64,000 nucleotides of DNA from Sphaerolaimus hirsutus (Eukaryota; Nematoda; Chromadorea; Monhysterida; Sphaerolaimidae), in contig OZ038455.1 in NCBI GenBank assembly GCA_964036195.1, positions 18,307,855 through 18,371,854 on the forward strand. The letters run 5' to 3'. This document shows positions 10,197 through 62,900 of the stretch, piece by piece. Numbering within the stretch: the stretch's first letter is position 1; every line of letters begins with the position of its first letter. The notes beneath the pieces were generated by a model. The model was not told where the DNA came from, did no database searches, and worked only from the letters and a program-made list of their open reading frames with translations. The translations under genes and the position numbers were made by a program.

Positions 10197-10204
10197 GTGC
10201 ACAT

Positions 10205-11036
10205 TAGTGATGGAATGGCGCCATGGCGCTGGCGCCATTTGAGGGCGCCAAAGGGCGCCGCGCCATGGCGCCATTGGCGCTTGGCGCCCTTTTTCCGTGG
10301 CGCCCTGCTATAAAAGGGCGCCAAAAAAGCGCCAGCAGAGTTTCAAGGTGAGTGCTGTGTAAATGAAAAAAATCATAAAAAACGCATCAGTGGATGATCT
10401 AAATTAGCCAGAAAAATGGACGAAGTGGTGTGAGTCGGTGGAAATCTTTCGTCCAACGTTTCATCAGATGTGTCTGACGGATCAGAAGATAAGAATGATG
10501 GACCGTCAAACTTGCACAATTATTTAAAAAAAGAATTCAAATCGTTGCAATTCCGTTTTTGTCCATTTCAGGGAAACATTGATTGGAAAAGCCTATTTGA
10601 AGTGAATGGATTGTTATCAAATGGCAATTTCCGTTGTGTTTGAATTTGTCACGTGGATTTTATTGAAATTTTGTTGCTAGATGTGTTTTTGTTCATTACA
10701 TCCTGAAGAACGCGAATTAAAACGTGAATGCGTGTACCACCGTGCTGTAGCAACATTTTTAGCACATGCAGGGTGTTGTAGGCACTTATTGATCTTGGCG
10801 CCCTTGGCGCCTGGCGCCCTATTTTCCAGATGGCGCCATGGCGCCCTTGGCGCTTGGCGCCCGCTTTCCGTGGCGCCCCTGGCGCCTGGCGCCCACTTTC
10901 CGAATGGCGCCATGGCGCCCTTGGCGCCTGGCGCCCTTTTTCTGTGGCGCCCTTGGCGCTTGGCGCCCACTTTCCGAATGGCGCCATGGCGCCCTTGGCG
11001 CCTGGCGCCATTTTTTCTGGCGCTTTTCCATCACTA
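10205..11036. mobile_element. hAT MITE, GGCGCC-rich, copy 1
   Basis: Flanked by the perfect 8-bp duplication GTGCACAT at 10197-10204 and 11037-11044. Ends TAGTGATGGAATGGCGCCA and CTGGCGCTTTTCCATCACTA are inverted repeats; TAGTG fits the hAT terminus. Both ends are packed with GGCGCC and GGCGCCATGGCGCC palindromes around an AT-rich core at about 10330-10790. Long frames here on either strand are low-complexity products of the GGCGCC repeats, not genes. Confidence 0.85.
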
Positions 11037-11047
11037 GTGCACATGAA

Positions 11048-11824
11048 TAGTGATGGAATGGCGCCATAGCGCTGGCGCCATTTGAGGGCGCCAAAGGGCG
11101 CCGCGCCAGGGCCCCATTGGCTCTTGGCGTTTTTTTCTGTGGCGCCATTGACGCCTGACCCCGTTTTTTAAATGGCGCCATGGCGCCCCGTTCATAAAAT
11201 GGCGCCATGGCGCCCCGTTTTTTAAATGGCGCCATGGCGCCATGGCAGAGTTGTTAAAAGTACTGAACTTTTTCGAAAATAAAAGTAAATGTAAAGTATT
11301 CATTTTTTACTCACAGGTGAGTACAGAAAACGTAAAGAATTAATTTTTTACTTTTACTCATGAGTAAACATCCCTGGAGTAAAAAAAAGTAAATTACTTT
11401 TGTCCCCAGAAAATGTACAAGTGGGTATTTTTGAGAAATTTTGCCCCAATTTTCACTCAAAATCATCAATTTTTAAACTTTTCCACCACCAAATTCACTA
11501 GTTCATGTGTTTTTGCCTATTTTTATGCTATTTTGGATATTTTGTACCTATTTTTTTCAGCTTTTCTCGCTTTTTTTCGTTTATGACTTAAAAAGCCCAT
11601 AAAGAAGCCCATTTGAAATATGTTTTCTCTAATTTCAAAAAGTATGGGAGTAAGTGAGCACCGGAATTTTTTCTGGGAGGAAACGTAAACGTTTTAACAA
11701 CTATGGTCCCTGGCACTCAGCGCCCTTTTTCTGTAGGTCCTTGGCGCCAGGCGCCCTGTTTTCGATTTGCGCCATGGCGCCATTGGCGCTTGACGCTCTT
11801 TTTTCTGGCGCTTTTACATCACTA
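11048..11824. mobile_element. hAT MITE, GGCGCC-rich, copy 2
   Basis: Flanked by the perfect 8-bp duplication CACATGAA at 11040-11047 and 11825-11832. Ends TAGTGATGGAATGGCGCCA and GGCGCTTTTACATCACTA. Its left duplication overlaps the right duplication of copy 1 by five bases, so one element inserted right at the edge of the other. The core (about 11255-11655) is a member of the dispersed ACTC/GAGTA repeat. Confidence 0.85.
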
Positions 11825-11832
11825 CACATGAA

Positions 11833-16300: not shown

Positions 16301-19300
16301 CTCATTCAAAATAGCTTTATTTTTAATGAAGCTTGAGCAATATTTTAATATCAGAGCATCAATTTCAGATTTAACATCTATTTGAATGGTCTGCACGTCA
16401 TCACCAATAATTTTTGTGTTTTGGAACATTCCCAACATACTTCCTACCTGCCGTTCTATTGGAGGTGCCGTTCAATTGGAGGCTGCCGTTCTTTTGTTTT
16501 TGTGATTGAAAAAATGTGCCAAAACTTGCCGTTCTATTGGAGGTGCCGTTCTATTGGAGGTATGCCGTTCTATTAGAAGAAATACGGTATCATAGGGGCA
16601 TTTGTTTTGATTAAATTTTTTCAATTCATTAATTTTTTATTGCATTCACACATTTTTCATACTGAGATAGGGTATATCCTCGAATAAGACCCCTCCTTGA
16701 ATAAATCCCCTGTTGGCCAAGTGAGAAAAAAAACTCCCACTTGAGTAACCCCCCCCCCTCGGTGGTCTTATTCTTATGTGGATACCTCCAACACTATTCA
16801 TTATTAATTCATAAAAGCCATTGGCTATCCAAAACTATTCAAACTGAACAACCGTATATCCTCGAGTAACTTCCCCCGGGGAAGCATTGAAATCAATGTG
16901 AGTGAACTCTAGCTGCAAGATAATACATATATTTAAATGTTAAAAACATAAGACATTTTTCATAAATGTGAAATGTTGTGAAATTTTTTCTACCCATCAA
17001 AGTGGGGGGAATTATTTTCTCCTCACACTCACAAGAGGGGGAGGGACATATTCAAGAGGGGGAGTTATTCGAGCGGGAGGAGTTATTCGAGAGGGGGGGG
17101 AGTTATTCGAGAGGGAGGAGTTATTCGAGGCAAGGACATAGCCAGGCGGGGGTGGGCGGGGGGGGGGGACCAAAAAATGTGCCAGAAATGGCACTTTCAG
17201 AAGACAATTTTGTTGACAGTTTCTGATGTTCATTTCTTTCATTTCTCATGCAGATGTTGCTTGTGTCCAAAGCTCATCAGTTTATTTTAATTGTACTAGA
17301 AGTTATGAATTTTGGCACAAATTTTTTTAATTTTACGCCCTAATTTTATCCAACTTACAGCGCTTAATTGACAAAATTGTGCCAAAATTCATAACTCCCA
17401 GTATGACAAAAATAAACTCATGAGCTTCGGACACAAGAAACATCTGCATCTAAGCTATCTTTGACTGAAATAACAATATCTTATCTTTATCCATTCATCT
17501 GTAATTTATTTTATGCCCAAAATCAATTTTACACCTGGTCAATTTTACACCCGAGCTGTAATCGCAGCATTAACAACATCTATTTTCGGCTGACCAATCT
17601 CCGCGGCTTCAAAGCCAGTGAAAATGGACTAAATTCAAGTCCATGTCGCTGTATATGCCTGTAAAATATAGACATATACTGCTGTTTTGACGCCAATGCC
17701 GACGCCAGTGGCGCCATGGCATGGCGCCTATGAATGGCACCAGTGCCGTGACGCCACCCCCCCCTTCTACAGAGGTAAAATTTTAGGGGGGGGGGGGCGC
17801 CGCCCCTCCCCCGTTCGCCGGGCTCCGTATACAATTCGCCCCCCCTCCGCTCAAAAATCCTGCCCACGTAAATACGTCCCTGATTCGAGGATATACGGTA
17901 GGTAAACTAGTTAATCTTTACACTGGCACTTTGACGTCGAAAAACGGTGTTCTTTTTGAAAACTTGTTCCCAGGCGGTCGATCTTGGCGGCCGCATTTAA
18001 CGAATTCGAGAGACAAACGTGCATCCGCTTCGTGCCGAAATTAAGTCGGCACACTGATTATTTACATGTCTTTCCTGAGCAGGGCTGTTGGTCGAAAATT
18101 GGCAAACAAGGTGAGCAGAATACTGGAGCCTTTTGACCTATGCAGGTAGTGGTTATGTTCACACTCGTTCCAGGGAAGGAAAAACAATGTTGTACTCATA
18201 TTTTTCCGGAAAGTGTCCAAAAGATGGTACTTATGTCTTAAAATGGGAGTTATGTCTAAATACGAGTACAACATTTTTTTTCCTTCCCTGGATCGAGTGT
18301 GAACATAACCACTACCTGCATAGGTCAAAAGGCTCCAGTATTCTGCTAAGGTGCATTCCCTCCCAACTGGCAACTGGGGGACGGGGGCACTCCCAGACCG
18401 TGTAAAAAGCTCTATAAAATGTCAAATGTCATGCAAAGTGTCAAAAGTCACGTAAAATGCCCTGCAAAATGGCAACACAGTTGCCATTTTGCAGGGCATT
18501 TTACATGACCTTTGACACTTTGCACAACATTTGACATTTTACAGGGCTTTTTACAGGGTCTAGGAGTGGCACCTGATTTTTCATGATTTTGCTATATTTT
18601 TATGCGCAGTGCCGTTAGCGTTCTAAAAATCTCTGGGAGATTTATATTTAAAAAATCTCTTTAAATATAATTAAATAGCAATTTAATTATATTTATATTT
18701 TTTCCGAGAACTTTTAGAGAGATTTAATTATTTTTTTTCTGTGGGAGAAAATATAAAAAAATCTCTGTGAAGGCATTTTTTGGGAAAATTTTGCCCCAAT
18801 TTTCATACTTTTTGCCCATTTTCACCTTCAATCCACTACAATCCATGCATTTTCCCCTTTTTTGGCTATACGTGTGCTTATTTGTGTACCATTTACTTTT
18901 GTGTACTATTTTTTCCCTTTTACGGCTTGAAAAGGCTTATAAAAGCCTATCTGAAATACATCTTCTGTACTCAAGTAGTTTCAAAAGGTATATGTGAAAG
19001 TCAATACAGGTACTTTTTTCAGTGGAAATGTGAACATATTTACCCAGTAAACCCAGTAAACTTGAGTATGCATATTTTTTGAGAAAACATAAATATCTTT
19101 TAGCAACTTTGGAAAAAAGAGAGAAAAGTTGAATGGTAAAATAGCTGAAAGTGATAATTCAGTTAATTCTTCTGAGGTTTCAGAGAATGATGTCATTGTT
19201 TAGGAAGTTCCGTGGCTAGAACAATCATGCAGTGAATCATTGCCATCATCACCCACTGGGTTTATCGGCAGTTTATGATCTTTTTTATGAAAGTTTGCCC

Positions 19301-31509: not shown

Positions 31510-31951
31510 CCTACGCACAAATGCCTGGTACGCACAAACACCCGGTACGCACAAAATTGTGCCCGCCACGCACATCTGCCCGGTAACTTACATGGCTGAT
31601 GATCTTTGCGTACCGGACAGATGGTCACTAATGTTATTGCACAGCTTTTTTCACTTCACTGATATCTGAAAATCACTTGAAAAATTGTCAAGTGAAAAAA
31701 ACAGTCAAAAATAGCCATTATCCACCGTTTTTTCACTTGACACTTTTTCAAGTGATGTTCAAATATGTGTGAAGTGACAAAAAGTGAACTAATGTCATTG
31801 CGCAACTTTTTTTCACTTCACTCACAAGTGTGAAGTGAAAAACATGGTCAAAATGTAATGTAATGTCATTTCGTACCGGGCAGATGTGCGTGGCGGGCAC
31901 AATTTTGTGCGTACCGGGCATTTGTGCGTACCAGGCATTTGTGCATACAAG
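31510..31951. mobile_element. Long-TIR element, ACGCACAAATGCC family
   Basis: About 75-bp inverted ends: ACGCACAAAATTGTGCCCGC and CCACGCACATCTGCCCGGTA at left, with complements GCGGGCACAATTTTGTGCGT and TACCGGGCAGATGTGCGTGG at right. Each arm itself repeats GGTACGCACAAA. The core holds CAAGTGAAAAA / TTTTTCACTTG inverted motifs. Target duplication not resolved. Confidence 0.6.
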
Positions 31952-44900: not shown

Positions 44901-47900
44901 AAAAACACGTTTTTTAATTTTAAACGTTTTTTTTAAAGCTCCCAGATATGGCCTTGTGTCAACATATATACCTAGATATATCAGACAAGTGGCAATACTC
45001 TGTGATGTTATATAGGACCATTTAATAGCTGTGGAGCCATGGGATAGACTTATAAGTGGTGATTTGTGTAAAAAAATATCCGTTTTAAAATCAAATGTTC
45101 GTATATCTCCTTATAGTCGAATGTTCATGACTACAAGTGAAGTTTGGCACACAATAGTGATCAAACAAGGTTACCGTATTACCTGCAATATAAGGTATAC
45201 CTCTAATATAAGGTACCCTCTAATATAAGGTATACCTTTTGGCCGTTTTAAACGTGACGAAATAAATATAAGGCATACCTCTAATACAAGGTATACCTCT
45301 AATATAAGGCACAGCTGGCTGCGCGCCAAAACGCGTTAAATCATATTAACTTTGTCAAACATGGCGGAAAACGACAAAAATGGTGGCGAAGGGCACTCAG
45401 ACAACTTTATGCCGATTTTCGCCACTGCAAAATGCATCAAGCTATGGCGGTACTATCCACTTGAAGAGAAAAAGCGAATTGTCGATGATACCTTGTCCTT
45501 GTGGCCTTCTTGAACGTGACGAAATAAATATAAGGCATAAATACCTCTCATATAAGGTACCCTCTAATATAAGGTATACCAAAACGCCAAAAAAATGACG
45601 AAATCAATATAAGGTACCTAAATAAATATACCGTATATCCTTGAATAAGACCCCCCCCTTGAATAATACCCCCCTTGAATAACACCCCCCTGTTGGCCAG
45701 GTGAGGAAAAAATAACGCCCCCCCTTGAATAACTCCCCCCTCTTGAATAAGTCCCCCCTCTGGGTAAAACGATTGATGAGCAACACACGAAAATGAAAAC
45801 GAGACAAACAAAAAAATAAAGCTATGTCTGGGCTGATTCATCGAATGGGGTTTGGTGTGTGAAACGAAAAATACAAAAGAATGTTAGCCTATGATATTTT
45901 TTAGGTTTAGATGATTGAACACGAATTTTAGGATGGATACGTTGTTTTTGTGAGCAAAAGTGGGTGTCCAAAAATTGTAAAATTCGAAAAATTTTAAACG
46001 TAAATGTATATACAGTTCACCTAATGAATTTATGTAGAGGGTTGTTTACACTTCCGAGCTTACAATAATTAAAACATTTCAGTTCTACTTCGACGTTGGG
46101 TTTGGGCGATTCGGTGGGCGAACGTGGCGTTGGCGTTTTCGTTTTCGGCGACGTCGCTGCGCTATGTTGGCAACGTGCATTTCCGTTTTTCCGGTGCCCC
46201 ATTGTGTTATGTATGTCCTTTTGGCCAAGGAAAGGATTGGAGGTATTGAGGATCTGACACAAAGTTGACGCTGTGATGTAAATAGTTGTTCTTTTGTTTA
46301 GATTTTTTTATTTTATTCAATTAGGTAGTTTTTTAAAGAGAGTGAGACAAGTGAGGTGGCAACAATTTTATTTGTGATAGACTGATTAAAAAGTATTTTT
46401 CCAATTTTACCAGCAGTTTAGATTGCATAATAAAGTTTTGTTTATTTTCTCTAAGTAGAAAAGAGTGACGCTGCGGTTACGTGTCGTGGTGCGTGAATGG
46501 TCAGTGATGGCTGAGGACACATAGGTTGATATTTGACTAACTTTCACTGTTTTTTTTGAGTGAGGGCCGTGGCTATTGATCTAGTATGTACTGTGCATTT
46601 CTGCATTTCCGAATTGAGAAACAAAAGTTAATTTACAAGCGATTTTACAAAAGTACACTGATTATAGAGGTGCGGTGATGATTGGTGTTGAAAATGAGAG
46701 GTAATTAAAAGAATCGAGTCTAACTCGACAGACATGATTTCATGTTTAAATGCCTACTCCCTTGGCTTGTTGTGAGAACAGCCCAGTCTGCCGATCTCAT
46801 CGAAACAAGCACCCATACAGTGACAAGTGTACTTATTTTTGAGTGAATTGGACAGTTCGGTATTTTCGGGGTGTGGTTTTTGCACAGTGCATATGGGATC
46901 AAAAGCCGTGGTTGACTAATTAACATTCTGGTAGCAGAATGAGTGGTGTAGCAGCGAGAGTGGTCATTTTCTAAAGATAGGTGTCTTCGGTGGTTAGTGG
47001 CTGTTGCGTTTCGGCATGTGGCAGTGGATTCACTTAGATATTTCGTTCAGTTTCGAACTTCTAAAAAAAAGTCATGCAATCTAAACATGTATTTGAGCTA
47101 AAAAGATTGAAATTTATCAACTTTCCAGTTGCCAATCATTTGCGTTTGTATTTTTATTTAGCATCATACCGATTTCACATTCATTTTAACGTTAGGTTTG
47201 GTAGGGAATAGGTAAAACTCGAGTATGTTAATTTTTATTTGAATTCTACTTTTGCAACTTCGCTATTTTTTTTTTATCTACCTAATCCTAGATTGTTTTT
47301 TTTGAGTGTTTCCTTTTCCCCTAGAAAACTGATAACTTGACCTTCGGATATTTAGGAATTTATGCAAATTTCGTGGTTGATCTTTATTATACAAAGAGAT
47401 GAAATAATAAGCCGCTTGTTTTTCCTGTTTTTTTCCCGAATAAGTTGATAAGTGTAAAGGTGATCTGATTTGAGTGCGTATTTTATCACTCTGGTGGAAT
47501 TTCCGCTTAGCGTCTTTAAAACGGTACCGTAATTCGTTTTTTCCTTGACAGTCAGTGTGAAAGTTAATTCCATTCGCCTTACCGGTATCCTAATCTTATC
47601 ATGGATTATCCCTCTTACGACATTTTTTCATTGTGTATTAATAATACGTGTGCTTCTTACGCTTTGGATATCAATGTCATTTTTGTTTACTATACGCTCT
47701 TTTTGCTGATGGGATTATTGTTTGCGTGTTTATTTGTCTCGCTTATCGCTGTGTGTTTCCCCGTTCGTGGAGGTGGTTTTGGATTTTCGGTAGAATTCGC
47801 TGAGTAATTTTTGAATCGCCCGCCATTTTTTCGCGCTAAAACAAGTTTTTACAGTATCTCTTGTGTTTTTCCTGTTCTTTTTATTCTTCTCGCATTCGTT

Positions 47901-50900
47901 CATTTTCTATTTTCGTACTCGTTCCCATTCCCATCCATTTTTGCGCGTGAATTCTTTGTGTTTTTGTGTACTTTGATCGACATATCCTGTAAACTGACGC
48001 CGTGAATAATTTTAGGTATGCCCATTTTCAAATTCCGTGTGTCCGTCAAATCGGCTGTAAGCATGCTTCTCGTGGTATGTGGAAGTGTTGTCTGGACTTG
48101 GCTTATGTTGTTGCATATAAAAGCGGACCGTAATTTAGAGTAGGGGTCGATTCAGTCAAAATTGCTTCGGTTTTATTTCTTGGAGTGTTTTTGAAGGTTT
48201 TGTGCCGCTGGTTAGAAACTCGCTCTCAGTGTGTTCCCTGTGTTCTATATGAATGTGTGAATTCTGAGTCTAAAATCGCCTAAAATAAAATCTCTTCTAA
48301 AAAACTTCGGACCCCTTGGTGTAAATTAGACATTTAACTAATTGCTAGTGCGTTGATAAAAACGCCATTCGCTAAAAAGCTAACTTAATTGACGTAGCGT
48401 ACACCTGTGATATTCACTTTGGTGGATTCACCATTGTGCGTTGTGAATTCAATCGGTAGTCGCTTTTCCGTTGCCTTACTTTGTCGCTCATCCAACGAGT
48501 AGGTGTGAGATCGGTAAAACTTGGCAGTTTGCCATAGTGGAATTTGGTTGAGTAAAAAGCAGCCGGTGAAAATTCATGACAACTGGTAGCAGCGAGTGGT
48601 TTGTTTAATATTCCCAGTGAGTTCAGGCGACTGATCACCGTTTGACAATCGCTGGTGAGAACAAACGAATTACCGCCCGGCTGGAGGAACGGAAGGCTAC
48701 CCGATCGACGCAACCGATAAGTACGGACATTTTTGTATTGGGGTGTGAAACTGACGAAATTATTAGTGGGCAAAAAAGGGAAAAACGGAAAAGTAAGAAA
48801 AAACCAAAATCGGTTCAGTTCAGTACGGACGCGCATTGTTCTGAGCCTGGAACCGCTGAGTTGAGTGACGAACCTAACGACTTTGACGTCAACTGCTGGG
48901 TGGACGCGGAAGGACCGGTCCCTGAAAGAGGTGCGGAGTAGCCATTCCCGACCTTTGAGCAAGGCAAGCCAAGTGCGGGTGCGGAGGTGCCATTCCCGAC
49001 CACAGGGCAAAGTAAGTTAGGGCACCGAAGCGCGAGTGCCGGGTACCGAAGCACGAGTACCCAGTCGTCGAGTGAGTGTGTGCTTTTCCGGTATTCTACT
49101 TTGAGTATGGCGCATGCGAGCGGTAGTGGTGTGAATACGGGTCCAGATGTGGTGCAATTGTTGATTCAAGCGAAAAATTTGACTTTGAATCAAATTAATT
49201 CATCGATAGTGGGGAATTCGGTTCAGGGGTCAGAATGGAATCTTAGTCAGGTTGTGACTCAAACAGTGAGTATTGCCGCTTATTTGTATAATCAGCGCCC
49301 CATGAGTTCATTGGAAAATGGAAACATGAGTGATAATGATGAAAAATTGGTGGCGTTGGTAAAATTAGGTGTTGATTGTTATAATTTGCAAAATGATGTG
49401 AGTCAAATTGCGGACGCGATTAATGCATTTGCTGAGCATATTCATTTAGAGAAGCCTGACATGCAAGCGATTAATGCCGTAATTAGTGCTGTTTCTAATT
49501 TGGGAGGGTGCTCTACCGCTACCACACTGCCTATACCTGCCATGAGTATGGTTGCTACTAGTAGGGAGGGTTATGCCGCCGCCATGACTGCGCTTACCGG
49601 ACAGGTAGTACCATTTAAGGGGCACGCTGATGATAAGTTTGCTGATTGGCGTAAAAATTGGGATGCAGTTTGTGAGGCGTTGCAAATTCCGACAGATGAG
49701 CGAAAATCGCTGCTTCCGGTTTATTTGCGTGACAGCGCGCATTCGATTTATATGTCGCATAAGAGTGAATTGATTAATTTGGATTATGAGGAGTTCATGG
49801 ACGCTTTGGAACGTTATTATACTAACCCCATTTCGGAGCATCATGCGCAAAGGGAAGTAATTAGTAGTGAGCAGGGCGAAGATGAAGATGTGTTAAATTG
49901 GTCAGTGCGGCTGGAAAGAATTATAAAACGTGCTTTTCCGAAACTTTCAAAAATTGAACGCGAAAAGATGGCAGTGGCAAAATTTGTTAGTGGATTGTAC
50001 CCTGACATCCGTAGGAATGTATCCATTACCGCTGGGGCTAAGTTTCAAGACGTAGTCAATAATGCGCGCACGCAAGAAAGTTTTCTGGAAATTGATAAGG
50101 ACAAAGTGGGTGGTAAGAAAAAGTCAAAATCCAACGCTGAATTAGTTTCAGAAGCCACCAATTCGGTAATCGAGCGAATTTTTGCTTTAGGGGGTGCGGG
50201 AGCTTTTGGAAATTCTCCGCCCGCTTTGTCGGCGGCGGAAAATCCAAAGTTTGAGGAACAGCGAGTGAAACTGGAAGAACTTTCTAAGCAATTAGAGGAT
50301 AAGGATAAGCGCTTAGTTGACTTGGAAAAGCAATTGATAGGTAACAATGCTGCGAAACCAGTTTCCAAATTTAGGCCGCATAAATTTGATGAGGGCTGTT
50401 ATGAATGTGGGGCAGATGACCACTTTCGTTCTGATTGTCCTAAGTTGACAGAAGAGGAAAGAGCGCGCTTTAGAAATTTTCGGCGCGGGCCGCCGCAGCG
50501 ACCAATGAATAACTTTAGAGGTCCAGCGAATATGATGCGCTCTGCACAGCAACCCGTATATCCCATGCAAGCGGCGCCTTACCTGTATTATCCCCCTCCC
50601 GCGCAAATGTCAACCACTAATTGGTCTCCAGTGCAACAAGTGCAATCATCGCAAATGGCCATTGCAGCCGCTCCGTCAAATGAATTGACTGCATTAAATC
50701 CTACGCGCGTGTTTGCGAACTCAGTGAATCACGCACGCTGCGTGCAAGAAAGTAAGGAATATGTGCGCATTATTAGGGTTTTGCCGGGTCTTGAAAGTTC
50801 GGATGAGGAAACAGAGGATCCATGCAACCCGCCTGAAATAACGCCGCAAGAACATCAATTCATGCTCGAAAGGGAGGCATGGATTATGCCTTGGGTTTAT

Positions 50901-53900
50901 GCGCATTCGTTAGACAGTATGATTTTTCGAACGAAGTGGTGGGCTCAGTTGCAACATATGGGTTTGCAGGGGTTGAATATTAGTGGGTTTTGTGAGCATG
51001 TTGATGAACATCCGCATGATGATCCTGAGGACACTTTGACGTATGTTAAGTTAGAAGCGCTGCTAGAATTAACCATGCATACGTTTATGTGTGAACCGCC
51101 GGACATTAGTTTGTCGCGAACGTCATCTGACTCTGAGCTGTATGTGTTGTCCGATTATTGTGAAGCAAGCGTGCCAACTTTGTACCGAACGTGGTCGGAA
51201 CTGAGTATGTTGCCCAGTGTGTTGAACCGTGTGTTTTTCCTGTGCTGTCTATTTACGTTTTTTTGCAAGTGCTGACGCAATGGGTGTTTCAGGTGGTGGT
51301 GGCGTTGCTAAGAAAAAAGGAGTGTCAGATGGGTGGATTTTGACCGTGCGAAATTTTCTTGAGGGATTTATCGCTGGAATGTGCACTTTTGTGTTTCTTA
51401 GATTTTTTCTGCCCGCTTTGTGTGAACTGGTGTTGTATTTGGTGTGCGTGGTGTGTGATTGGATAAAATTGAGAGTGTTGCGGTTTCAATTAAATCGCAT
51501 GCAAGCGATAGAAAATAGGCGCAATACTGCAAGGGGTGCGACCCCTGTGACGCCGCCGCAAAAATTGAATCCAACCAGCGCTAACAGTTCAGGGTATAGC
51601 GCCGATGTTGAAGAAACGCCAGTGAGTATATTTAAGCGTTTGCCGCCGCTGCGCGTTCCTAAAGACTCTGCGGTCATGGAAAAAGTGAATGTAGTCACGC
51701 TGACTAGTGAAGAAATTGCGAACATCAAAAGTATTACGGCTAAGCGTAAAGAACTCGTGCCAATTTACTACAGTCCGTCGATTATGGTAGAAATTGAAGG
51801 GAATGAATACAAAAGGTGTCTGTTGGACACAGGTGCGATGAGGTCATTGTGCAGCCCTCTAGTGTTGGCTAGGCATGGCCAATTTCCGCTGCCCAGATTA
51901 GACGACACAATAGAGTCATTGCACAGCTGCAAGTATTTTTAGCAGTGTCGATATCAATCAAGCGTTTTACAACATTGCGCTGCATCCGGATGATAGACAT
52001 ATTACATCGTTTTGTAATTGTTTTGGCCAATTTCAGATGAAATGTTTGCCGATGGGATTAAAATGTTCCCCGGCTTTAGCACAGCGCTGTTTTGAAGTTA
52101 CGATGGCTGGATTATTGCACCGGAATGTGTTGGTATATATAGATGATTTGCTTATTTACAGTAGGTCATGGGAAGATCATTTGAGTGATATAAGTCAGGT
52201 TTTGTCGCGCTTGATAAGTAGCAGTTTTAAAATACACCCCAAAAAGTGTTTTTTCGCGCGCACAACCGCTGTTAAATTCCTGGGTTATATGGTAGGGCGT
52301 GAAGGGATTTGTATACCAGATGACAAGCGAAAATATTTGAGTGATTGGCCGCTACCTGTGTGTGTGCGTGAAGTTAAAGCGTTTCTAGGTGCCGTTGGGT
52401 TTTTCCGGAGGTTAATTCATAAATGTGCTGAATATGCCGCTCCCTTGTCTAATTTAACTCGAACAAAAACTGAATTAGGAACTGAAAAGTATAGTGGAAG
52501 TACTCCTGTAGATTTAAATGTGAATCCCGCCGCTTTGGAAGCTTTTAATAAGTTAAAATTGATGGTGGCTGAGAGTCCCTGTATACAGTATCCTGATCCC
52601 AGTAAACCGTTTATAATTATTACCGATGCTTCTAAAGTTGCGTTAGCGGGTATTTTAGTACAGCGCGCTGAACCTGCCGCCGCTCTGCATGCGTGTTCAT
52701 TTTATAGCCGAAAACTTTCTGAAGCGCAATCCCGATGGCCTGCAATTACGCAAGAAGCATGTGCTATTTTTGAGAGCATACGAAATTGGCATTGTTATTT
52801 AGCGGGCCGGCCGTTTGAAGTGTGGACCGATGCGAAAAGTATTTCATGGGTTAAAAATCCCAATTTGGAAACCCATCCCCATACGGGTTTGCACCGATTT
52901 GCGCTTGCTATTCAATCATATCAAGTTACTTTTAAGCATTTGCGCGGGAAAAGTAATGAATTGGCTGATGCCTTGTCGCGCCGGCGTGATGCACCTGTTG
53001 AATTTGATGAGCGTGTTAATTTGGATGAAGCTTTTGAAGAATATGCATTTGATATACCTGTTGATGAATTGGCGAGAATTTTGACTGAGGAAATGGCGCT
53101 GTTGACATCTGAAGAACATTTAGCTTATCAAGCAGTAACTAAGGCTATGGCGTGATTGGCTGCTGCTCAAAATTGGCTGAAACATGCAAAAATGAAGTCT
53201 TTGGAACCGTCAGTTATGGTAGCTGCTGAACCGCCAGTGGCAAGCGTTGCTACTGTGCGGGCGCCACATCCAATGACTATGCGTGTGCGAAGTAAACCGA
53301 AGGCGGAGTCCAATTCTGAAAGTGCTTTGAAATCACCGCCAAAAAGTGACGATGCGCCTAAATTAATGGCTGGTGGCCGCCGTTCCGTTCAATTAAGTAA
53401 GAAACCGGAAAAACTCGATGCTTTACCTCCTCCCATCACTCCAATTGAAGAGTTGTCGCGTTTGCAAAAAGAAGAACAGTATATAATTACAATTCGACGC
53501 ATGTGCGAGGAATCTACTTTGCGTAGAGCCCCACCGTTTTTTATCGATCAATTTGATGTGGTTAGACGTGATGCGGATCCGTCAATATTAGTGGGTGAAA
53601 GGAAATACGACCCTGCGTGTATTCCCCAGTCATTAGTTGTCACTGTGTTAGAATTGGCGCATAACCACCCCACTGCTGGACATTTAGGTGTGATGAAAAC
53701 GTTTGAAAGATTGCGCGAATTTGCTTGGTTTACAAATATGCGACCAGAATGTGCTAGATGGGTTTCTACTTGCCCTTCGTGCAACGCAAAGAAGGGATTG
53801 CGTCGCTCGATGAAAACTCAAATTCAGAGCCGGAAAATTGCTAAGTATCCTGGTGATTTTATTGCGATTGATGCAGTAGGGCCATTGCCAATTACTGAAA

Positions 53901-56900
53901 AACGAAATGTGCATGTATTGGTATTTGTGGATCAATGTACGCGTTTTGGTTTAGCAGTGCCCGTTCCTAATTTGAAACAAGATACTGTGGCTATTGCGTT
54001 CTTGCAACATGTGTTACCGATTTTTGGCGCGCCCGCTGTAATCTTATCCGACAATGCACCAAGCTTCATTGGCGGCATTTTTGCGGAGTTGCTGCGTTAT
54101 CTAAACACGGTGCAGCACAAGTGTTTCAATTATACGCCAAAAGGAAATGGTTTGGTTGAGCGCAGGAATGGCGTCTTAATGGAAATAATTTCGCATTATG
54201 TGAATGGTTCGCATTCGGATTGGGACAAACACTTCGGTGCCGCTGTCTATGCGTATAATACGTCTAAGCACCCCTCTATGAAAGTGACGCCATATGCGCT
54301 GCTATTTGGATCAAATTCTCCGTCACTTTGGGAGGGAGTGTATGATAGAGCCGACGGGAAATGGCACCGATAAGACCGATAAGCCGACGGCGTACAGTCC
54401 CTTTGTGTCAAATTTAGACGCGCGACTTTCGGACGTCCGCACGGCCGCGCATTCGGCTTTACAACACGTGCAAGAAAAAGAATGTTTTTATGCAAATCGC
54501 AGTGCGCGTCGCTTGAATTTGAAGCCCGGTCAATCAGTTTGTGTTTATTCGCCCCGAATTCTTCGAAAGTTAGGCCGCGTTAAGAAGTTCACGCATCATT
54601 ATATTGGCCCGTATGAATGCTTAGATTATGTGCATCCCATTGTGACCGTGTTTAATAGGTTGTCTAAGAAAACTTATACCGTTCATGCTGATCGCGTTAA
54701 ATTAACAAATGAACCAGTTAATCCCACCTATTCGCAGATTTTCGGTTAAAAACCCTGAGATTTTCCGCTCTTCAACCTTAAGTGCTTTAATCAATTATTC
54801 CGTTCGAAAGTTCAATTAAAAGTCCATTTTTTTATTACTATTTGGATTATTCACGTTTAATTCTGGCCGTCAATTAGTGGTGAGTTCGGGGTTGCAAATT
54901 TTGTCTTTTTGTTTGCGCGTGCGCGTGAGGTAAATTTGAAGTAAAAAGTTGTATTTTGTGTAAAAGGTAAAGCGCGAAAGTTTTATAAGTGTTATTTGTT
55001 GTTCGTTCCTAATTGTCGTCGCAGTTTTAATTCATCAGTTATTCATACCATCGCATTTATTTTTCCTTCTAAATTTGTTCTTTAATTTCATTCTCATTTT
55101 CGCCCATTTCGCAACAAAATAAAAATTATTTTTGGCGCAATACGTTCAACGTAGTGCGTTGAAAATAATTCGCAACTTTTCAGTTAGGGTGTTGCTCAGA
55201 CCTTCGTGCATTTCGGTGCCGACATTCTGGGTGGCGCATTTTAAGTAGCAATAAGTTGTGTTTTCCGGTTCTCTACTTTGAGTGTGAAAAATGAGCAGTT
55301 CGGGCGGCGTACCTATTGGTGGGTATGGTGCTAGTTCTAGTTTGTACCGTGGCGGGCGCATAGCCAAGGCGCCGCTCAAATCGTGGACTTCTCATGGAAA
55401 ACAGGGCGGGGACACTATTCCGCCGCTGCCTTACAATCCCCCTCGAAACGCTCGATTGGTTTGTCCTGAATTTGTCATCAACAAAAAGTTGTCGGGAATA
55501 GTGGATCGAGTTCACGTCAGCAACGAACAGCGTCCTACCAGTTATCAATGTCACATTCGTTTCGACGGCGATGCGCAGGCGATTTTGGAAAGTTATCCGG
55601 AATGGTCGGAAGCGGAAAGGGCTTATCCATTTTTCACTTATTTGGTCAACAAAGCGGAGCGCGCTCGCGAGCGGTCGGTGCAGAAAATTTTGAGGGAATA
55701 TCGCGAGGCTAACGAGGCGTACCACATGTTTTTGCCGCTTGTCCGCCACAGCATGCATTTTGTCGCGACTGGTATCAGTAGGGTTAGCACCGATCCAAAG
55801 TATTGGGAATTGCGCGGCGTCACCATTATGAAAAATGACGCTCAAATGCCATTGTTTTTGGGCCGCCCGGTTGTCATTGTTTCGCAAGGCCAAGTTGACC
55901 TCTCTGTCGATGAACCGGCGTCGGAAATTTCACAGAGAAAACAGGAAAATCGCAAAGGATATCACGCTTATCCAACCAAGTGGAGGTATTTGCGTTTGAG
56001 AGCGGCGTTCACCCCTTCGCGATACATTAGTGCACCCCCCTTCAAAGGCGCCGACGAGCGGGATCCGGGCCCTGAAAAATTGATTTTTGCGCATAGCGAA
56101 AATGTCTTGGAAAGCGACGTGCACCCGCACGCTGGACAATCAGGCGTGGCGCATGTAGAGTATCATGCTTTTGACGACGCCGGTAAAGTCAACAACTTTT
56201 ATTGGGCTCATGCCTATGGCGTGCGTATTTTTTCGGCGCGGGAAATTGAGGCTGGTATGGAGTGGAAGGGTGAAATGAACAGAAATCAACTTACCTCTCA
56301 GCTGCAGCTCCGTTCCATCTTTTTGGCCGCTGCTAATGTGTGTCACGAAGCGCATTTGCGATACACTGCGACTAGGGCGAAGGCGGTGCGTGCGCAGGTG
56401 ACTTGGCAAAATGGCCCGCGGGGATTAATTGCAATAATTAGGTGGGAGCGCGTGCACTTAAATCCAGCCACTGCGATGCGCGACACGGCCGAGTGGCACA
56501 GGAATAAGGCGCAGGGCTACATGTTGAATTTCACTTCACCCATGTTGTCGCTACAAATCGTCGAAGCTGATCCCCGGGGGGAAGAGCGTGCTCTGACTGG
56601 TCGCCCGCAAATAAGTTTACGCACGGTCAGCGCTGACATCACCGCCGAGGCGGTACAGTTGGTCGCCAAACCGGATGTGTTGGTGCCGCAGGCGCTGTCG
56701 CCGCATTTGATGCCCAATTGCGATTACATGGTGCGCGGTTCCGCTTTGTCGCCTAGCTATAATGGCCGCATGGAAATTTTGGAGCGTTTGTGCATAATGG
56801 GGCCTAGTGGTTACCGGCCAACAGAGAGTGACACCGGAATGCTCGCTGTGGAAGACCAGGTCAAAATGGCGGTAGTGCTGCACAAACAGCTGACCCAGGT

Positions 56901-59900
56901 TGAAACTAATTGGCAGCGAACGCTCGACAAAATTGAGTCTGACGGGTTGTATGCTGTGGTGCGCAGAGGCACATGCGAAGACTTATTGCAAGCGCACCAG
57001 GGTGATTTTCGGCCGCAGGAGGGGCAGGGGCGTGTGATTGCGTCAGTTATCAAGTCTGTGCGAAAAACTGCGCCGCTGTTGTTGATGTGTGATTCACCGT
57101 TCGGTTCCGGTAAAACGACTGTGCAAAGTCAGTGTGCGTACGCGGTTGCGTATAAGTTTACTGAGAAAAATGACCCGCCGAACCCGCTGAAGAGGGAATT
57201 ACCCTCTGATGCAAACAAAAATGTGCTTTACCACTCCACAATGATCACCTGCAGTGTGAATTCGGCCGCTGATGAGTCTGCTAGACGATCGTTGCAAAGT
57301 TTGGCGGACATTGGTCTGCCTAATTTGGAAACAGTCGTGGAAGTTTTGCTGCGCAGTAGGGAGAGGTGGACTGCGATGGATGACAAACCGAATTTCGAAA
57401 CACCTGGCTATGCGCGTTTTTGTCAGGTGCGCGCTGCTTTCGCGATTCGCGTGCTGAGTCCGTTGTTGGAAGTTGACGATCGCTACGTCGATATGACGCT
57501 CCAGCAATTGCCGCTGTTGAATTTGATCGCGCAAAATATGCCCGTGCATGTGATTCGATTGAATGACCACTGGCTAACTGCTTATGAACGCTTTACCGCT
57601 CAACGCCATATTTGTGACACTTTGAACGAAATCGTCGCGAACAATCAGCATCCCGCCGACATTTTTGAAGCCATTCGGTTGCAGTTGCCTTTGGTTCGTT
57701 TGTCCATCGACAAAGACGACGAGGATGATTTGGTGCCACTGGACGATGGTCAAGAGGAAGGCGTGCAGGCGTGGGGGGCCGCGGCTGGCTTTGTCGACGA
57801 CAACCAGACGTGGGGCAAAATTTACAAGCGCGAAATGCGACGCCTCGTTAGGGTGGCTACTAGGTTGCATAAGGTGGTGTTGAATGTGCTGCAGCCCGGT
57901 CAAGTTCACGTGACTTTGGATTCATCGCGCGATAAGCGACTGCAAGTTTTGAAATATGCTGCAGTGTTTGTGGACGAGGCGTCTCTGGCGGATGAAACTG
58001 CCATTTTTGGCGCTGTTTCAAACGCTCGACTCCCCCACAATGGCTTGGTGCTTTTGTTTGGCGATAGCAAGCAGTTGACCCGAATGGTCAGGCCGCATTC
58101 ATGGATCGCTCCGATCCTGAAACCTGATCCATCGTTAATCAACAGGTTGGTGGAAGGTGTGCTGTGTCCAATTCTGAAGCTCGAGACTGTTTTCCGCGGC
58201 CACGACGCGCTGATTCAAGCGAATTCTGTCGCTGCGTAAGATGGCCAATTGCGCGCGTTCCACGAATACAGTCAGTGGCGGGACAAATTACCGCTCATGG
58301 CTTGCGGTGCCGATCAGGTGCCTTTGTCTTCTGTGATCGTGCACATGGGTTTCGAGATGAGCGAGGGCGTGTCTGTTAAGAATTTGGCGGAAGTGGACAT
58401 TGTGGTGCGCGTTGTACAGCAGTTTGTCATTTTGGCGCTGAACAGCGAGGGCGAGAATGTCGTTCCGTGGAGTAATTTAGAAAGCGCTGATACGCTGCTG
58501 GTTGTGTGTTTCTATTCAGCGCAGGAGAGAAAAGTGATTGACGAATTGGTGTGATTGAACTGGACGCAGTTGTTAGGGGGTGAGGGGTTCCCCGATTATT
58601 TGGTGACCCCAGCGTTTTGGCGGAAAAAAGTCATCACTGCTGATCGAGCGCAAGCTCGTGAAGCGCACGTGGTGATTGTGTCATGTGTGAGGGGTAGTGT
58701 GCCGCGAGTGGATGCTACTGGACATCCGTCGCAGCGCGAGCGCGATGTGATGGACAGAATTGGCTTTTTGGCGATGCCGGAGCAGTGCAACGTGGCCACG
58801 TCTCGAGCCAAAACGGCCAGGGTCGTGATCATGAACGCCACTACCGTGCTGCATTCTGAGTTTTTCTGGCGTTTTGTGGACGTGGAATTAAGAAAGGGAC
58901 GCGTGTTTGCGTACCATGAGCGGCGGTTGTGGGAGTGTGACCCGTTGGCTAGGTTTTTGACGCACTGGAGAAGTGCCCCGGTCGATCTGCAAGAACCCGC
59001 TCCGCCAGTGCAAGAAGAAGAAGAAGAAAATGAGGTTCCGCCGCCAGAAGAAGAAGTTCAGGAGGTGGATGTGAGCGAACAGCAAGCGTCCCCTCAGCCA
59101 GATGCTAGCGTCGCCGCTCCCGATTCCCCAGACATGCAAATGTTGCCGCCAGAAGATCAAGACGAGGAGCCAGAGAAAGTGCAGCCGCGCGCGGAGGAAA
59201 AAGCGGGTTGTTCTCGGTCTCGGCATCGATATCGTGGTCGCCGTCGCTCTCCCTCGTCGAGTTCTTCCTCTTCCTCTAGTTCTTCGTCGGGTTCGTCAAA
59301 ATCGGGATCGAGTGAAACCGATTCGGCTTCGGAGTCTGAACGCGCGCCGCCCGTGCCAGCACATCAACAGAAACCGCTCCCGGAGGAGGAGGTGATGGAG
59401 GTGGAACAGGAGCAAGGTGAACAAAGTGCCCAACAATTGGAACCAGAGGAGTTGGAAGGCCAACGGCAGGAACCAGAGCCAGAAACTGAAGAGGCTAACA
59501 ATGCAGTCATTGGAGAGAAATTGGATGAGTTAATTCAAATGGCGGGCGAGTTGAACACCGAGTTGGACGCCGAGCGACAGAAACAGTCCATGAATCCAGA
59601 CAGACAGGTGCTTAGAGAAATGGACGCCATCCAGGAAGAGGCCAATGAAGTTGAGCCCATGCAAGAAGATGAACAGGAACAGGAGCAGCCTGAGGAAGTG
59701 GTCGCACAGCAGCTGCAGCAACCTGTTCAGGTTGTTGTAGTTGGCTCGCCGCCGCCACCGCAAGAGGAACAGAGTCCGCCCCTGCCAGTGACTCCGACTT
59801 TGGCAGGTTTGGAGCCAGAGGAGGAGATGGAAGCGGAGTAATGGTAATTTAGGTGTACAGGAATTTTTGTTGTTGTTGTTTTCGTCTTTGTGCGTTTTTT

Positions 59901-62900
59901 TGTTGAGTGAACTTTTTATCAGTAGAATTGAGTTTTCGTTGAATTGAAAATTGAATTTTCATTGAGTTTTACCGGTTCAAAAGTTTTTTTTCTGTTCTCA
60001 ACAAAGTGTGGAAAAGTACGTAATTTTGTTGATAAATTTAAAGTTGGTTTAAATAGTTCTTAGAAACGGGGATTTATTTTAATTCATTTTAATAGTTTTG
60101 CTGTGTTTCGATTTTAGCCGGGAGGTAAAATGTATGGCTGGTGGAGTTTGTGAGCAAAAGTGGGTGTCCAAAAATTGTAAAATTCCAAAAATTTTAAACG
60201 TAAATGTATATACAGTTCACCTAATGAATTTATGTAGAGGGTTGTTTACACTTCCGAGCTTACAATAATTAAAACATTTCAGTTCTACTTCGACGTTGGG
60301 TTTGGGCAATTCGGTGGGCGAACGTGGCGTTGGCGTTTTCGTTTTCGGCGACGTCGCTGCGCTACGTTGGCAACGTGCATTTCCGTTTTTCCGGTGCCCC
60401 AATGTGTTATGTATGTCCTTTTGGCCAAGGAAAGGATTGGAGGTATTGAGGATCTGACACAAAGTTGACGCTGTGATGTAAATAGTTGTTCTTTTGTTTA
60501 GATTTTTTTTTTTTATTCAATTAGGTAGTTTTTTTAAAGAGAGTGAGACAAGTGAGGTGGCAACAATTTTATTTGTGATAGACTGATTAAAAAGTATTTT
60601 TCCAATTTTACCAGCAGTTTAGATTGCATAATAAAGTTTTGTTTATTTTCTCTAAGTAGAAAAGAGTGACGCTGCGGTTACGTGTCGTGGTGCGTGAATG
60701 GTCAGTGATGGCTGAGGACACATAGGTTGATATTTGACTAACTTTCGCTGTTTTTTTTGAGTGAGGGCCGTGGCTATTGATCTAGTATGTACTGTGCATT
60801 TCTGCATTTCCGAATTGAGAAACAAAAGTTAATTTACAAGCGATTTTACAAAAGTACACTGATTATAGAGGTGCGGTGATGATTGGTGTTGAAAATGAGA
60901 GGTAATTAAAAGAATCGAGTCTAACTCAACAGACATGATTTCATGTTTAAATGCCTACTCCCTTGGCTTGTTGTGAGAACAGCCCAGTCTGCCAATCTCA
61001 TCGAAACAAGCACCCATACAGTGACAAGTGTACTTATTTTTGAGTGAATTGGACAGTTCGGTATTTTCGGGGTGTGGTTTTTGCACAGTGCGTATGGGAT
61101 CAAAAGCCGTGGTTGACTAATTAACATTCTGGTAGCAGAATGAGTGGTGTAGCAGCGAGAGTGGTCATTTTCTAAAGATAGGTGTCTTCGGTGGTTAGTG
61201 GCTGTTGCGTTTCGGCATGTGGCAGTGGATTCACTTAGATATTTCGTTCAGTTTCGAACTTCTAAAAAAAAGTCATGCAATCTAAACATGTATTTGAGCT
61301 AAAAAGATTGAAATTTATCAACTTTCCAGTTGCCAATCATTTGCGTTTGTATTTTTATTTAGCGTCATACCGATTTCACATTCATTTTAACGTTAGGTTT
61401 GGTAGGGAATAGGTAAAACTCGAGTATGTTAATTTTTATTTGAATTCTACTTTTGCAACTTCGCTATTTTTTTTTTTATCTACCTAATCCTAGATTGTTT
61501 TTTTTGAGTGTTTCCTTTTCCCCTAGAAAACTGATAACTTGACCTTCGGATATTTAGGAATTTATGCAAATTTCGTGGTTGATCTTTATTATACAAAGAG
61601 ATGAAATAATAAGCCGCTTGTTTTTCCTGTTTTTTTTCCCGAATAAGTTGATAAGTGTAAAGGTGATCTGATTTGAGTGCGTATTTTATCACTCTGGTGG
61701 AATTTCCGCTTAGCGTCTTTAAAACGGTACCGTAATTCGTTTTTTCCTTGACAGTCAGTGTGAAAGTTAATTCCATTCGCCTTACTGGTATCCTAATCTT
61801 ATCATGGATTATCCCTCTTACGACATTTTTTCATTGTGTATTAATAATACGTGTGCTTCTTACGCTTTGGATATCAACGTCATTTTTGTTTACTATACGC
61901 TCTTTTTGCTGATGGGATTATTGTTTGCGTGTTTATTTGTCTCGCTTATCGCTGTGTGTTTCCCCGTTCGTGGAGGTGGTTTTGGATTTTCGGTAGAATT
62001 CGCTGAGTAATTTTTGAATCGCCCGCCATTTTTTCGCGCTAAAACAAGTTTTTACAGTATCTCTTGTGTTTTTCCTGTTCTTTTTATTCTTCTCGCATTC
62101 GTTCATTTTCTATTTTCGTACTCGTTCCCGTTCCCATCCATTTTTGCGCGTGAATTCTTTGTGTTTTTGTGTACTTTGATCGACATATCCTGTAAACTGA
62201 CGCCGTGAATAATTTTAGGTATGCCCATTTTCAAATTCCGTGTGTCCGTCAAATCGGCTGTAAGCATGCTTCTCGTGGTATGTGGAAGTGTTGTCTGGAC
62301 TTGGCTTATGTTGTTGCGTATAAAAGCGTACCGTAATTTAGAGTAGGGGTCGATTCAGTCGAAATTGCTTCGGTTTTATTTCTTGGAGTGTTTTCAAAGG
62401 TTTTGTGCCGCTGGTTAGAAACTCGCTCTCAGTGTGTTCCCTGTGTTCTATATGAATGTGTGAATTCTGAGTCTAAAATCGCCTAAAATAAAATCTCTTC
62501 TAAAAAACTTCGGACCCCTTGGTGTAAATTAGACATTTAACTAATTGCTAGTGCGTTGATAAAAACGCCATTCGCTAAAAAGCTAACTTAATTGATGTAG
62601 CGTACACCTGTGATATTCACTTTGGTGGATTCACCATTGTGCGTTGCAAATTCAATCGGTAGTCGCTTTTCCGTTGCCTTACTTTGTCGCTCATCCAATG
62701 AGTAGATGTGAGATCGGTAAAACTTGGCAGTTTGCCATAGTGGAATTTGGTTGAGTAAAAAGCAGCCAGTGAAAATTCATGACATTTTGTTAGTGTTGAA
62801 CTGGTCATTTTCTGCATTAGATGTGTTGGCGGGATGCATACAAACAATGAATAAAGTGAAAGTTTTCCTGGAAGTTCTGAGGAAAAAATAACTCCCCCCC

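Follow-up and report, generated by a model that had tools for sequence, protein, structure and literature searches.

A UPF1-like helicase as a probable selected third gene of Ty3/gypsy-type LTR retrotransposons in the nematode Sphaerolaimus hirsutus

The stretch of Sphaerolaimus hirsutus DNA analyzed here, hereafter the window (64,000 nucleotides; assembly GCA_964036195.1, contig OZ038455.1, positions 18,307,855 to 18,371,854 of the forward strand), contains a complete Ty3/gypsy-type long terminal repeat (LTR) retrotransposon with a gene for a UPF1-like superfamily 1 (SF1) helicase between its integrase and its 3' LTR, the position known for env. Judged by sequence comparison among copies, there is little doubt that the helicase is a selected third gene of an element lineage, as it occupies the same place in further copies of the element, is under purifying selection, and has a homologue in the same place of a second family. 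It is probably an old and kept gene, whose enzyme would help the element to multiply or to escape the RNA quality control of the cell.

The helicase gene and its class

A first-pass annotation of the sequence had described an open frame of 1,517 codons between pol and the 3' LTR; this does not hold for the window copy, which is interrupted by two in-frame stops. Its parts are as follows.

55291..59841, + strand: helicase gene, third gene of the element, at the env position after integrase and before the 3' LTR; reading frame interrupted by stops at 58237 and 58552
55291..56952, + strand: N-terminal region (about 554 aa) in which Pfam recognizes no domain; 37% identity between the two families (A and B) described below
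57091..57117, + strand: motif I (Walker A), DSPFGSGKT, by motif reading
57247..57288, + strand: motif Ia, by motif reading
57964..57984, + strand: motif II (Walker B), VFVDEAS, by motif reading
58048..58077, + strand: motif III, VLLFGDSKQL, by motif reading
58183..58212, + strand: segment preceding motif IV, ETVFRGHDAL
58636..58695, + strand: motif V, TADRAQAREAHVVIVSCVRG, by motif reading
58783..58812, + strand: motif VI, QCNVATSRAK, by motif reading
58990..59838, + strand: acidic C-terminal tail rich in Gln, Pro and Ser; 20% Glu across the 298 aa measured (from 58945)

The assignment to the UPF1-like helicases made in the first-pass annotation is borne out by the Pfam family AAA_12, which is found above its cut-off after the second stop (58555-59838, E=2.2e-9), in another copy of the same family (L015) and in the second family, together with the SF1 motifs located above. 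The companion family AAA_11 matches the piece before the first stop (55291-58236, E=3.9e-5) at 24 bits, below its cut-off of 27; it is likewise below the cut-off in family B and is not listed for L015. The annotation had also named motifs I, Ia, II, III, IV, V and VI, and all of these are present in order apart from motif IV, for which only the preceding segment can be pointed to. SPFGSGKT is invariant in three family-A copies and one family-B copy, and the first residue of motif I is N in one A copy. The first piece is open over 982 codons, compared to a longest stop-free stretch of 245 codons in 200 base shuffles of it. AlphaFold models of the two pieces, made without an alignment, have a mean predicted local distance difference test score of 35 and 32.

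In comparison to solved structures, a profile built from families A and B finds SMUBP-2 (9.5e-5) and UPF1/NAM7 (0.003-0.02), and the family-B protein by itself matches an entry titled "5'-3' RNA helicase-like protein" (1.5e-5), which we take to be Sen1, and UPF1 (0.015); the first helicase piece of the window alone finds nothing among solved structures. Neither family has a Pfam match at E<=1 to the zinc-binding CH domain of UPF1, which a UPF1 orthologue would be expected to have, nor to a Rep (HUH) or Helitron domain. Viral_helicase1 (PF01443), the mark of the viral, virga-like class, has no match in A and reaches 13.5 bits in B, compared to a cut-off of 21. On these matches, the helicase is UPF1-like but is neither UPF1 itself nor the virga-like helicase of insect long interspersed nuclear elements (LINEs). 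Searching a set of 5.8 billion proteins with the first piece, whole and as residues 500-982, gave 7999 and 7997 scored candidates with none at E<=10, which is weak evidence of absence as candidates in this search must share exact words. Searches of the viral_contigs and genome_contigs collections returned no helicase relative, and scans of PHROGs and NCBIfam gave nothing above the cut-off where one exists.

Copies, a second family and selection

The 348 Mb genome was searched with the first 982 helicase codons, and 47 of the 577 first-look candidates were scored. These are the window copy and 46 others, here called family A; all 46 cover the full 982 residues, with identities of 95-97%, and 45 are stop-free over this length. 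Among 20 of the 46 that were fetched, 19 have a single open frame of 1515-1520 codons and the remaining one (L010) stops after 51 codons. The LTR begins 304-329 bases after the helicase in 15 of the 19 open copies; an exact 10-mer did not find it in the other four, one of which proved on further reading to have its LTR.

Reading in pieces showed that each of three other copies consists of a 5' LTR of the window family, leader, gag, pol, helicase and 3' LTR, so that the search for other full copies suggested in the first-pass annotation locates the helicase at this position in 3/3 members of the LTR family. Their LTR pairs are 99.28, 99.96 and 99.96% identical, with two pairs differing by one base, and the 4-bp target duplications read by eye are CTAT, CCAC and TAAG. 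Because of the 99.96% identity of their LTR pairs, two of the three insertions are judged to be very recent. One copy, C13, is without about 1 kb of gag.

A search of the genome with the AAA_12 profile (150 of 454 candidates scored) revealed a second family. Two matches lie far above the rest (177.7 and 146.6 bits) and are probably cellular; the remaining 148 score alike, at 89.7-97.8 bits, and 97 of the 146 open-frame lengths recorded for them are 1300-1400 codons. The seven of these 148 that were read all belong to one family, B. The B copy that was read in pieces is an LTR element of about 17.6 kb with TGGA at both sides (by eye from the ends), and its helicase is in the same place as in family A. 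Its terminal repeats align with 99.48% identity in a main piece of 1,546 columns, and 159 further bases are identical. Compared to the window, family B is 74% identical in the reverse transcriptase (RT), 60% in the integrase and 39-42% in the helicase; measured against copy L015, the B helicase is most similar in the core (47% identity), followed by the N-terminal region (37%) and the tail (28%). As a homologue about 40% identical stands in the same place in both families, the helicase would either predate the split of A and B or have passed between them long ago.

The ratio of nonsynonymous (dN) to synonymous (dS) divergence was used to measure selection across copies. For the 982 helicase codons, the 210 pairs among 21 family-A copies have a median dN of 0.017, dS of 0.153 and dN/dS of 0.085 (range 0 to 0.25), the copies having been ranked by helicase similarity, which lowers dN/dS; for family B, the median dN/dS is 0.070 (21 pairs of seven copies), likewise lowered as copies with long open frames were picked. 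In a four-copy comparison with six pairs for each gene, dN/dS is 0.07-0.17 for the helicase, 0.05-0.11 for gag and 0-0.06 for RT (gag and RT of C13 being partial), and integrase has 0.07-0.08 in the three pairs without C13 and 0.31-0.42 in the three pairs with this frame-damaged copy. The test for purifying selection that had been proposed thus has a positive outcome in both families, and in family A the dN/dS ratios place the helicase close to gag and integrase.

Element structure, leaders and reading frames

The window element was described in the first-pass annotation as lying within matching LTRs with a target duplication and as having a Ty3/gypsy-type pol upstream of the helicase, and both descriptions were confirmed. 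The LTRs (45947-48581 and 60147-62784) align with 98.98% identity across 2638 columns, differing by 20 transitions and four transversions (24 substitutions) and three gap columns, and TTTT stands on both sides. Pfam recognizes RVT_1, RNase H and the integrase domains H2C2 and rve. Paired TG...CA LTRs with a short target duplication and the order gag, protease (by motif only), RT-RNase H, integrase are those of a Ty3/gypsy-type element, a label given from domain order and Pfam for the group as a whole. The features of the element outside the helicase are listed here.

45949-62784, + strand: complete LTR element of Ty3/gypsy type, contig OZ038455.1 in window numbering
45945..45948, no strand: left target-site duplication TTTT, read by eye
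45949..48581, + strand: 5' LTR, TGTGAGC...ATGACA, by alignment and boundary reading by eye
48583..48600, + strand: probable primer-binding site TGGTAGC...; an identical sequence adjoins the 5' LTR of the family-B copy
49084..49106, + strand: leader motif copy 1, ending directly before the gag ATG, by pattern search and self-blastn
49107..51275, + strand: gag, open; Pfam PNMA above its cut-off, Retrotrans_gag and zf-CCHC just under theirs
51226..51942, + strand: hydrophobic segment, retropepsin part (LLDTGAM) and RT start; about 1.1 kb missing near 51876-51879 in the window copy
51931..51942, + strand: shared +1 frameshift-type site TATTTTTAGC in the RT domain; ORF1 stop at 51940
51914..53155, + strand: RT (palm onward) and RNase H; Pfam RVT_1 2.6e-25, RT_RNaseH 1.4e-25
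53156..54749, + strand: integrase, frame broken near 54290-54373 in the window copy
55050..55290, + strand: conserved leader before the helicase, by mean pairwise distance in 21 copies
55124..55170, + strand: stem-loop of 21 pairs in the helicase leader (z=-3.84)
55261..55283, + strand: second copy of the leader motif, its end 7 bases upstream of the helicase ATG, by pattern search and self-blastn
60149..62784, + strand: 3' LTR, by alignment and boundary reading
62785..62788, no strand: right target-site duplication TTTT, read by eye

A leader motif of its own had been claimed for the helicase, and the motif TTTTCCGGTNYTCTACTTTGAGT does stand before both the gag ATG and the helicase ATG. It occurs twice in the 64 kb and never in 100 shuffles, a control that is favourable as the pattern was written from its own two sites; blastn of the internal region against itself also finds the pair (E=0.002). 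In 3/3 other copies read, copy 1 is present, with one T/C change in two of them. A wider motif of 35 bases is common to the gag and helicase starts in family A (window 49075-49109 and 55254-55286). The TTTGAG within the leader motif resembles the nematode spliced leader SL1; a search for SL1 RNA gave 0 matches, as it did in the control genomes, and so has no bearing on this. In the window, the tRNA scan gave 0 hits and Rfam 0 at gathering score, with ten weak matches at E<=1, all below gathering scores.

The region before the helicase is conserved beyond this motif: across 21 copies, the mean pairwise distance is 0.023 in the 240 bases before the helicase ATG compared to 0.091 in the 280 bases upstream (54770-55049), and can be set beside the median dS of 0.15 in the helicase. 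This 240-base segment resembles the 5' leader of an independent mRNA. The stability of the entire 541-base helicase leader is not unusual (z=-0.83). By eye, the leaders of L021 and L022 look like mosaics of two subfamilies, which suggests recombination between copies.

In the window, the leaders of gag (525 bases, 48582-49106) and helicase (541 bases) are free of ATG; at window positions 1-45900, both strands together have 1815 ATG gaps, all of them shorter than 525 bases. The gag leader is likewise without ATG in 3/3 other copies. The ATG-free helicase leader was considered as a sign of scanning or reinitiation and was dropped, as this property is not kept in 18 of the 20 other copies.

The frames of pol and helicase are both broken in the window copy and gag is open, so that this copy is decayed; in pol, about 1.1 kb of protease and RT is absent (and present in 3/3 other copies read), a stop stands at 53153, and the frame shifts near 54290-54373. 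Within 51289-51942, between gag and protease, the product includes a strongly hydrophobic segment that may span a membrane (Kyte-Doolittle mean 2.16). Zero Pfam matches were found in the piece 51226..51942, in which LLDTGAM is presumably the retropepsin motif. Protein search of the 5.8-billion set with the RT piece finds generic Ty3/gypsy relatives, the best 36% identical, and the contig searches with the integrase piece find one locus with 35% identity across 60 residues.

The RT domain is split (window 51914-51942): open reading frame 1 (ORF1), comprising gag, protease and the RT start, ends at a TAG inside TGYAARTATTTTTAGCAGTG, and ORF2 resumes RT in the +1 frame. This arrangement is seen in the window, L032, L030 and L034 at the same place and in L036 at 948-988, i.e. 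in 4/4 family-A copies and one family-B copy, and the site TATTTTTAGC is found in all four of the A copies read and in the sole B copy read there. According to a review, the frameshifts of yeast Ty elements are located near the end of gag (PMC5009743). Because of this placement, a +1 frameshift inside RT would be unusual if real.

Possible roles, alternatives and known systems

Taken as a whole, the explanation that appears likeliest is a selected third gene acting on the RNA or cDNA of its own element. The gene would have been acquired before families A and B diverged, and the helicase would be made as a separate product from an mRNA that has the conserved 240-base leader directly before its ORF; an internal start, splicing or reinitiation are the candidate sources of this mRNA or its translation. 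The protein may be an ATP-driven translocase which strips proteins and structure from the genomic RNA of about 17 kb while this is packaged and reverse-transcribed, and/or displaces host RNA-surveillance factors (nonsense-mediated decay [NMD] or small-RNA machinery) from an RNA that would look abnormal because a very long sequence follows the ORF1 stop. These two readings, aid to reverse transcription and evasion of surveillance, fit equally well. Since selection on the helicase is on par with that on gag and integrase, a role in the cycle of the element itself is favored over one in the host, and the chances that it acts in cis on the ribonucleoprotein of its own element are about even. A bolder version, in which the lineage turned a UPF1-like helicase into a full replication or RNA-protection gene equal to gag and integrase, with RT split by a shared +1 frameshift, is tentatively proposed.

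The first-pass annotation had taken the gene for one captured and stably carried rather than for a chance nested insertion, and this view is upheld by its place in other copies, its selection, its homologue in family B and the lack of matching ends. Among mobile elements, Helitrons are well known for an SF1 helicase, and a Helitron or other element inserted into the LTR element could have brought the gene. This is hardly credible, as no Rep or Helitron domain was found at E<=1, the longest word common to both flanks has 11 bases, the same as in shuffles, so that the block is not seen to be bounded by transposon ends of its own, and the helicase is at the same position in two families. An equivalent of env serving cell-to-cell transfer would agree with the position of the gene, but the first and second helicase pieces peak at 19-residue Kyte-Doolittle means of 1.31 and 1.02, respectively, compared to 2.16 in the pre-protease segment, so by hydropathy alone no membrane-spanning glycoprotein of the retroviral kind is indicated; with helicase motifs present, this idea is very improbable.

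Equally improbable is a passenger gene, which the element would have picked up a single time and kept without using it: the window copy is broken and LTR elements can trap foreign DNA (PMC6431247), yet purifying selection acts in two families with helicases about 40% identical, and 45 of the 46 other scored copies are stop-free over 982 codons. A better contender, if still rather unlikely, is a helicase that counters host defence in trans, through NMD or the Piwi-interacting and small interfering RNA pathways with UPF1-like helicases such as MOV10, without acting directly in reverse transcription. SMUBP-2 and UPF1 are its nearest relatives found among solved structures, and SF1 helicases encoded by insect transposons are described as weakly suppressing silencing in a plant assay (PMC6338049); against this, there is no sign of rapid change, with dN/dS low and near that of gag and integrase.

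A number of observations tell against the favored explanation of a selected third gene that acts on its own element. The other 530 first-look candidates of the family-A search are unscored, and ORF1 is damaged in two of the three copies read further. The way in which copies were chosen, by helicase similarity in A and by long open frames in B, besides lowering dN/dS cannot reveal copies that lack the gene. The leader motif was not seen by eye in the family-B leader before the helicase, making the idea of a shared leader family-specific; the stem-loop is without support from covariation, as no pair changed on both sides across 21 copies; and at least one ATG lies between the pol end and the helicase ATG in 18 of the 20 other copies.

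The statement in the first-pass annotation that LTR elements normally encode no helicase was too strong, as helicase-bearing retroelements have precedents. Insect LINEs are known to contain viral SF1 helicase domains (PMC6338049, PMC5563155, PMC4686597), fusions of SF1 domains to proteins of LTR elements are described for Diptera and Hymenoptera (PMC6338049), and viral helicase sequences near plant LTR elements are mentioned (PMC4686597). What they share with the present case is that retroelements gained an SF1 helicase, complete in its motifs, and retained it over evolutionary time (PMC4686597, PMC5563155, PMC6338049); they differ in that their domains are virga/tobamovirus-like and either form part of a LINE or LTR polyprotein or adjoin the element, whereas the helicase here is UPF1-like (AAA_12, SMUBP-2/UPF1) and a separate gene with its own large N-terminal region. 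Cellular UPF1/SMUBP-2-like superfamily 1B helicases resemble it in helicase motifs and AAA_12; in contrast to them, it has no Pfam match to the UPF1 zinc (CH) domain, and its profile similarity to the solved members is weak.

With a third gene that its copies retain at the position of env, this is also an ORF3-bearing LTR element. The LTR retrotransposons Vesta, Juno and TelKA of bdelloid rotifers carry such an ORF3 (PMC5408684) and are likewise gag-pol elements in which the env position is taken by a third gene for an enzyme, common to distinct families and thought to be auxiliary to replication. According to the same paper, the rotifer ORF3 is a DEDDy exonuclease or a GDSL esterase and not a helicase, and it has no significant departure from neutrality within a genome, whereas purifying selection is strong here (PMC5408684). 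Planarian Burro elements are similarly very large and gypsy-like with extra domains, but these domains (TRAF, BCL-2, midasin-like) are inside the polyprotein, and the passages covered name no helicase for Burro (PMC6431247). No LTR element with its own UPF1-like helicase gene was found in the portions of open-licence literature covered, which is not proof of none in print; as far as that coverage extends, enzymatic third genes and viral SF1 helicases in retroelements are already known, and the UPF1-like helicase gene in an LTR element is what would be new.

Retroelements as a rule rely on helicases of the host or are restricted by these, and two families (47 and 148 scored matches in one genome) with a selected helicase suggest that unwinding or RNA surveillance limits the life cycle. 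The host UPF1 and the element helicase form a natural pair for testing how RNA quality control meets retrotransposition; if the proposed role is true, whether a retroelement fights or imitates NMD with a UPF1 of its own becomes directly testable.

Elsewhere in the window, long palindromes with an 80-90% match to their own reverse complement are seen at 17248-17449, 18114-18347, 18388-18568 and 31645-31784, and direct repeats at 10197-11146 and 11720-11832 (alignments of about 100-155 bases) lie in what reads as a repetitive minus-strand frame.

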